A stretch of DNA of 64,000 nt, taken from NCBI GenBank assembly GCA_008682415.1, contig VANK01000003.1:1-64000 (forward strand), written 5' to 3'. Source of the stretch: Acidobacteria bacterium AB60. Lineage in GTDB: Bacteria; Acidobacteriota; Terriglobia; Terriglobales; Acidobacteriaceae. This document shows, one piece after another, positions 32,584 to 33,132 of the stretch. The notes below the pieces were generated by a model. That model worked only from the letters and a program-made list of their open reading frames with translations. It was not told the origin of the DNA and did no database searches. The position numbers and the translations under genes are program-made. The first letter of the stretch is position 1. The number at the start of each line of letters is the position of its first letter.

Positions 32584-32997
32584 TCAGCCTTTGGTGATGG
32601 CCAGGCGCGCCGTGCGGACCTCGTTGGCGAGGACCCGGAGGATCATCATGGAAAGGCGCGGGTCGGAAAGCATTAGCGCGGAGAACCGCTCGCGGGAGAC
32701 GAAGGCGATCTCGGCGCCGCCTTTAGCCCAGGCGGAGAGCGAGTAGGCGCAGTTTCCAATGACTGCAGGCAGGCCGAGCAGAGATCCGGGCCGGGCATCG
32801 AAGGACATGACCTCGTCCCCCTGGGGCGAGTCCATGGTGATGGTGACGCTGCCGGCGAGAACCAGAAACAGGCCTGTCGGGGTATCGCCCTGATCGAAGA
32901 GGGGGCGGTCCTGGTCGCAGTTGATGGGGGTTGCGTGGGGGCGGAGCACCTCCAGCAGTTCCCGGTCGGCGACAAAGGCAGTCGAATCAAGGTGCAT
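32584..32997 (-). CDS. Single-domain cyclic-nucleotide-binding protein
   Basis: A 137-residue protein consisting of one cNMP-binding (Crp-type) beta-roll plus the C-helix: LFDQGDTPTGLFLVLAGSVTI, split here as LFDQGDTPTGLFLVLAG and SVTITMDSPQG, then MSFDARPGSLLGLPAVIG. It ends about where a Crp would begin its helix-turn-helix; no DNA-binding domain follows in any frame before recG, so this is a free sensor domain, not a truncated Crp remnant with visible debris. The ligand cannot be predicted; the canonical RxA-type cAMP contact is not evident. A perfect TGTGA-N6-TCACA palindrome lies 35 nt upstream, so a Crp-family regulator may control it. Confidence 0.85.
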   Translation of the reverse strand: MHLDSTAFVADRELLEVLRPHATPINCDQDRPLFDQGDTPTGLFLVLAGSVTITMDSPQGDEVMSFDARPGSLLGLPAVIGNCAYSLSAWAKGGAEIAFVSRERFSALMLSDPRLSMMILRVLANEVRTARLAITKG

Positions 32998-33031
32998 GGG
33001 CCTATCTTTTCATCCTCTGCAGGTCCGTTTA

Positions 33032-33047
33032 TGTGAGGGACGTCACA
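33032..33047. promoter_or_regulatory. CRP/FNR-family binding site
   Basis: TGTGAGGGACGTCACA is a perfect TGTGA-N6-TCACA, the E. coli CRP consensus half-sites. It lies 35-50 nt before the start of the cNMP-binding protein gene on the minus strand. Confidence 0.65.
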
Positions 33048-33132
33048 GTGCGATGGTCATGCCTCTGCTTTCAAAGGCAGCAAACTCATGCCTGGAGCGA
33101 GCGAAAGCCCGGAATTAAAGCAGCAGGAGCCT

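Follow-up and report, generated by a model that had tools for sequence, protein, structure and literature searches.

Within the window, by which is meant the whole 64,000-nucleotide stretch of contig VANK01000003.1 of Acidobacteria bacterium AB60, a short gene for a protein with the cyclic nucleotide-binding (cNMP) fold is preceded by a perfect Crp-type palindrome. This arrangement raises the question of whether a Crp/Fnr-family regulator controls the gene and what a stand-alone domain of this kind would then do for the cell. The features of the locus are collected in Table 1.

Table 1. Coordinates of the stand-alone cNMP gene, its promoter elements and the regions of its product discussed in the text.
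Feature	Position in window	Strand	Remarks
Upstream element TGACCA	33054..33059	-	7-12 nt before the operator
Crp-type operator (palindrome), written in the direction of the gene as TGTGACGTCCCTCACA	33032..33047	-	Perfect TGTGA-N6-TCACA
Predicted extended -10 TGAAAAGAT	33004..33012	-	Offset 20; spans nt 20-28 past the operator
Predicted start of a leaderless mRNA, at the A of the ATG	32997	-	Inferred from the -10; operator centre at -42.5
Gene of stand-alone cNMP-fold protein, 137 aa	32584..32997	-	ATG at 32997; PF00027 match
Codons 75-77, G-L-P in place of cassette G-E-(L/I)	32767..32775	-	G 99%, L 91%, P 95% of 112 rows
C-helix, residues 113-136	32590..32661	-	Model secondary structure; alignments extend to residue 137 = CRP 134-135

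The operator and its promoter

A first-pass annotation of the window had described a perfect TGTGA-N6-TCACA upstream of a cNMP gene, and the palindrome was found as described. Its position ahead of the gene also stood, but the distance of 35 nt did not; a recount gave 34 nt to the ATG. The operator is the only perfect site within the window, where near matches with up to two mismatches numbered 10 versus 16.9 expected and were not above chance. The AB60 genome as a whole contains 22 perfect sites versus 0 for the reversed pattern. Among them is a site 45 nt ahead of C22:34683, which is also a stand-alone cNMP gene, and a full-length Crp-type gene on C1 likewise has one upstream.

Retention of the operator in relatives had been set beforehand as the test. 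A profile was built from 14 aligned short homologues, at least one of which (L049) has no visible site, and was run against 398 genomes of the bacterial family, from which the best 112 rows by E-value were taken. These rows represent 87 genomes, and a few of their promoters were already in the first homology search; two loci cut by contig ends and therefore scored improperly in that search (L053 and L058) are among the 112 rows as L079 and L143. Upstream DNA was available for 111 rows, with L127 (7 nt upstream) excluded and L084 contributing 270 nt. Within 300 nt upstream, the best site was perfect in 32 rows, while 63 rows had one mismatch, 12 had two, 2 had three and 2 had four. An operator with at most one mismatch precedes 95 of the 111 genes, the window gene included (51/57 rows in the window's genus and 44/54 in other genera). 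At the same threshold the reversed pattern gave 0/111, the gene body (first 300 nt) 1/111, the 300 nt past the stop 7/109 and Markov resampling about 0.7%. Judged from these counts, the operator ahead of the stand-alone cNMP gene is kept across the bacterial family. The unremarkable number of near matches in the window would suit a chance palindrome ahead of an unrelated gene, an explanation made vanishingly improbable by the conservation figures, 95 of 111 rows for the operator and 0 for its reversed form. The first homology search had covered 30 loci, 16 of them Crp/Fnr homologues whose ORFs were long enough to be classed as full-length; in the 400 nt preceding the match, not one of these 16 carried a site at the one-mismatch threshold.

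Allowing up to two mismatches in the site gave 107 promoters, which were aligned on the operator and reduced to 93 non-redundant sequences (<60% identity). In the alignment of the 107, GTGAYNNNNRTCAC is followed 20-28 nt downstream by another element. An extended -10, TG..A...T (TGnnAnnnT), begins at offset 19 or 20 after the operator in 49 of the 93 non-redundant promoters, while at the other offsets from 1 to 49 it occurs in no more than 2 promoters per offset. The strict -10 is unmatched in about half of the 93, and the reduced form A...T stands at offset 23/24 in 75 of them, compared with a maximum of 18 for other adjacent offset pairs. Because TGAAAAGAT lies at offset 20, the window transcript is predicted to begin on the ATG; a close relative of the gene (L076) has the identical -10 element and a longer leader. 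Farther upstream, an element resembling TGACCA or TCAC is marked by a C at -8 in 70/93 non-redundant promoters.

CRP and FNR activate class II promoters from operators centred near -41.5, upstream of the -10. The predicted operator centres in the promoters studied here, at -41.5 or -42.5, are at this class II activator position, and the fixed spacing between operator and -10 that characterizes such promoters was found, in the window gene as well. Since the geometry is that of class II, activation is predicted, and a class II Crp/Fnr activator very probably controls the stand-alone gene. The first-pass proposal that a Crp-family regulator governs the stand-alone domain thereby gains high probability from the conservation in 95 of 111 rows. 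At position 11 the operator of the window has a C, whereas A or G fills this position in at least 94% of the 107 sites; because of this C it falls outside a stricter composite pattern consisting of operator and spaced -10, the distribution of which is described below.

The protein, its lost cassette and its relatives

The first-pass reading of the product as a cNMP-binding protein without a DNA-binding domain was borne out. In a Pfam search at E up to 0.01, PF00027 (cNMP_binding) was the sole family matched by the 137-residue protein (residues 29-111), and the score of 49.1 bits exceeds the curated cut-off of 27.5, which places the protein in the fold; no helix-turn-helix family was detected at this threshold. 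The AlphaFold2 model (pLDDT 92, pTM 0.85) consists of a beta-roll and a C-helix, in which the chain finishes at residue 136, so that the C-terminal helix-turn-helix by which a Crp/Fnr transcription factor is defined is missing. The solved-structure matches listed for the model were mainly CRP/FNR-family sensor domains together with other CNB domains (for 5h5o_A, Z 16.4, rmsd 2.1, 123 aligned). The C-helix, which we take to be the equivalent of the CRP/FNR dimerisation helix, keeps E126 in 93% and R131 in 86% of the 112 rows.

The Glu and Arg of the phosphate-binding cassette were located via E72 and R82 of CRP, their counterparts. Glu at position 76 was found in 0/112 rows and Arg at positions 85-89 in 0/112, while an Arg somewhere in 83-88 was present in 10/112. 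A functional CNB domain is recognized by this Glu and Arg, and the stand-alone proteins do not possess the pair. The remodelled cassette is itself conserved, with Y85 in 98% and A89 in 91% of the rows in addition to G75, L76 and P77 (Table 1). The cyclase search of the AB60 genome covered classes I and III, and no match to class I or to class III was found. Class III cyclases (PF00211) are present in 32/80 family genomes; five genomes (G026, G030, G033, G056 and G078) have stand-alone genes without PF00211, and their best sites have 1 mismatch in G030, 0 in G033, 2 in G056, 2 in G078 and 3, which is counted as no site, in G026.

These data bear on the suggestion, also made in the first-pass annotation, that the protein could serve as a buffer of the cyclic nucleotide, which would be cAMP or cGMP. 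Such a role would agree with the PF00027 membership and with the class III cyclases of the family, and parts of the literature describe atypical relatives, the Popeye proteins and the cAMP-independent trypanosome PKA, that still bind nucleotides or nucleosides. However, because the cassette is lost and the AB60 genome has no class I or class III cyclase match, buffering is unlikely. The stand-alone genes in genomes without PF00211 argue in the same direction, as does the loss of the cassette from the five AB60 regulators with a CRP-type recognition helix described below. The buffer has been set aside with a very low residual probability. Feedback of another kind, through protein-protein contact or another ligand, is possible.

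Kinship was estimated from two quick trees calculated from few columns with SH-aLRT support only, in which rows were taken in file order for the first and at random for the second. The main stand-alone clade comprised 46/48 rows in the first tree (support 98; L142 and L150 outside) and 56/60 rows in the second (support 97; midpoint root, weak deep forks), and in both trees it adjoins regulators of the RETVTR type. RELVSR-type proteins and others lay outside the group of stand-alone and RETVTR-type proteins in the first tree (support 95). The regulators' cysteines are absent from the main-clade proteins. The four rows outside the main clade in the second tree (L126_26, L185_741, L188_758 and L192_458) are all real, stop-terminated short proteins, and because of these outliers the truncated form has more than one origin, although a single stand-alone clade was not rejected by the AU test (p 0.914).

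Short cNMP-domain proteins that keep the CxxCx8C motif were also observed in L192 and L193 (nt 1429 onward, 190-aa open frame). In L193 a full-length RETVTR regulator ends at nt 1251 and the short gene starts about 180 nt later; the L192 protein is a homologue encoded in the same relative place. Since each of these short genes carries a site, GTGAYNNNNRTCAC or GTGATAGNARTCAC, 52 nt before its start, headless relatives under this operator have arisen more than once. A second kind of stand-alone cNMP protein, with an LELAAVLGD region, is encoded beside type B regulators (defined below) in L022 (3871-4362, G000:C1) and L126, upstream of which no site within two mismatches was found. By eye, the frame before the script-picked start of the short cNMP proteins in L176 and L179 encodes a regulator-like cysteine motif, and in three AB60 loci (L016, L019 and L020) cNMP-binding domains are fused to histidine kinase-like regions.

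Several stand-alone paralogues per genome occur in G287, G347 and G327, most of them preceded by a site that differs at no more than two positions; five rows are listed for G287, where two paralogues are in tandem (C32). Conversely, 7/30 genus genomes gave only stand-alone matches weaker than E 1e-30, short of a strong one; composite-promoter matches are kept in 5 of these 7, so that the protein is dispensable. When 297 genomes of the phylum were searched at E <= 1e-26, the out-of-family matches, from three genomes, were open frames of 246-252 aa; weaker short relatives, such as L188, exist outside the family.

The neighbours of the 112 rows were surveyed by crude gene calling. The next gene downstream is on the same strand in 72/112 rows, and for this reason read-through into it is possible; it begins within 60 nt in 8/112. 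The commonest downstream clusters were plsY-like (21 rows; assigned by eye) and recG (14 rows), the latter lying 75 nt downstream of the stand-alone gene in the window. An operon partner was looked for and rejected, no neighbour being conserved in the 112 rows.

Genes that share the promoter class, and candidate regulators

The composite pattern was found in 46/49 genus genomes, whereas the reversed control gave 2 matches in all. Among the composite matches listed, two more recurrent promoter sequences were recognized, and the genes behind them were checked in the AB60 genome and in two relatives each. They encode an H+-translocating pyrophosphatase (hppA, PF03030; C4:98268 in AB60; L228, L232, L233) and a phosphoketolase (xfp; C27:475586 in AB60; L229, L234, L235), with acetate kinase (ackA) next after xfp in AB60 and in L235. 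The AB60 copies of hppA and xfp were confirmed with Pfam. Other composite matches precede different genes, for example that of a multihaem cytochrome in L238. Of the 21 other perfect sites in the AB60 genome, 5 have TAnnnT at class II spacing (one orientation) and most do not; these 5 include sites ahead of a NiFe hydrogenase and of a Prismane-family (Hcp) gene, the site of the latter lying 74 nt upstream. Among the listed promoters of hppA and xfp, the TGACCA/TCAC element was not evident. In L236 and L237 a conserved promoter of class II (GTGAYRTAAATCACTTTAC...) was also noted, and there the same-strand downstream ORFs are very short (54-59 aa).

The genes hppA, xfp-ackA, hydrogenase and Hcp are presumably used under energy or oxygen limitation, and these targets suggest that oxygen or energy limitation is the trigger of the shared promoter. 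A transcriptome of Acidobacterium capsulatum reports, in the sections available, that acetate and ethanol genes are up at low oxygen, naming pta, acs, poxB and adhP (PMC11636273). Neither "pyrophosphatase" nor "phosphoketolase" appears as a word in the main text of that study (PMC11636273).

Five proteins of the AB60 genome have a CRP-type recognition helix, R-E-T/S-V-T-R. Arg and Glu at CRP positions 180 and 181 pair with G3 and A6 of TGTGA, as stated in part of a comparative study (PMC1274295), and R-E is present at these positions in the candidate regulators. An N-terminal CxxCx8C motif is found in two of the five, designated type A (C29:155898) and type B (C1:89526), and not in the other three. 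The acting activator would be one of these five, with type A or type B as the most likely candidates.

A type A query was matched at E <= 1e-25 in 49/49 genus genomes, with matches at only about 29-34% identity in G177, G359, G390 and G675. When 30 type A loci were inspected, the 500 nt ahead of the first cysteine picked contained a site with no more than one mismatch in all 30, a count made without a control and with the first cysteine wrongly picked in L258 and L277. In many of these loci (L248-L277) the distance from a site such as CGTGAGGCCCATCACA to the first cysteine codon is about 240 nt. On account of the upstream site, autoregulation of the type A genes is suggested. A comparison of the stand-alone gene with type A in 30 genomes, made by eye, was uninformative, type A being present in 22/23 genomes with the gene and in 5/7 without it.

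The possibility was considered that the operator of the stand-alone gene serves repression rather than activation. A regulator bound there need not activate, and in the type A loci the upstream sites had class II geometry in 0/30. However, the -10 lies at 19/20 nt in 49/93 promoters and almost never elsewhere, which is the position expected for an activator, and identical spacing is kept at hppA and xfp. Repression is therefore an improbable reading.

Possible action of the protein and comparison with known systems

The genome comparisons give good support for the predicted control of the gene; a mode of action of the protein can be proposed as well. A Crp/Fnr-family activator would bind the operator in class II mode and turn on the stand-alone gene, the product of which would be a truncated relative of the sensor and dimerisation domain of such activators. 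In the least certain step, the product would feed back on the same regulatory network. In the simplest form of feedback, its C-helix would pair with a full-length regulator, giving a dimer with one DNA-binding domain that would act as a dominant-negative brake; alternatively, the product could compete for the regulator's signal. Modulation of the activator or its relatives is the simplest assumption because the protein is a headless, activator-induced relative that is seldom in a tight operon and has no fixed neighbour. As a whole, activator-driven feedback or cross-talk by a sensor-domain-only relative of the regulators is the best explanation, held tentatively. Several paralogues per genome are more than one simple brake needs and count against the brake. 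The explanation is also weakened by the dispensability of the protein, the missing cysteines of the main clade, possible read-through into the gene downstream and the lack of a site ahead of the second kind of short protein. The more specific scheme, in which lineage-wide, class II-induced anti-regulators made of sensor domains damp or retune a low-energy regulon via one-armed heterodimers, is rather unlikely.

The same control could equally serve another job. The protein may sense a small molecule or act as an adaptor in the low-energy response, with a ligand in the remodelled GLP...Y pocket and an enzyme or kinase, not the regulator, as its target. The kept remodelled cassette and E126 and R131 on the C-helix suggest a retained pocket or surface. 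Also consistent with this role are the want of a fixed neighbour and the genomes with several paralogues, of which the majority have an operator of their own. However, no partner gene is conserved nearby. This reading is possible without being probable, and a ligand-binding adaptor is about as likely as modulation of the activator.

An annotation reading "cyclic nucleotide-binding" is turned by this analysis into a testable module with an activator-type promoter, few candidate activators and a headless relative of the regulators as target. Truncated partners that block DNA binding are a kind of inhibitor seen elsewhere, and if the feedback is true, Crp/Fnr networks have an inhibitor class of this kind. 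Even without feedback, the analysis predicts a co-regulated set of H+-pyrophosphatase, phosphoketolase/acetate kinase, hydrogenase and Hcp in this bacterial family.

In the open-licence literature, nothing direct was found on Crp/Fnr regulation in this bacterial family, nor was a Crp-controlled stand-alone cNMP family. The HcpR regulon offers a first comparison. The HcpR consensus is wTGTGAnnnnnnTCACAw, hcp is a target, and HcpR-type proteins are without the FNR cysteine motif, according to the parts of the study available (PMC1274295). The AB60 hcp gene likewise has a perfect site, whereas type A and type B carry CxxCx8C and the recurrent targets are hppA and xfp-ackA. GlxR of Corynebacterium resembles type B in that its structure, 4cyd, is among the best solved-structure sequence matches of type B (E 1.8e-17) and in the SRETV of the recognition helix; it differs in having G-E and P-R where type B, in the alignment, has G-L and A-H. 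The class II promoters of E. coli CRP and FNR share an operator centred near -41.5 and upstream of the -10, but the gene targeted here encodes a headless protein related to the sensor domain of the regulators themselves.

The closest parallel is Vfr/CbpA of Pseudomonas aeruginosa, in which a CRP-family regulator is likewise accompanied by a separate cNMP protein that is not a transcription factor. Expression of CbpA reportedly requires Vfr, so that control of a separate cNMP protein by the CRP family has a precedent. In the portion of a recent article available, CbpA is named merely as another cAMP effector (PMC11139211). CbpA binds cAMP, whereas the window protein has lost the cassette, is single-domain and belongs to a promoter class common to energy genes. 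In the open-licence literature searched, no counterpart was found to a conserved single-domain family that has lost the cassette, is kin to the regulators and is linked with this promoter class.
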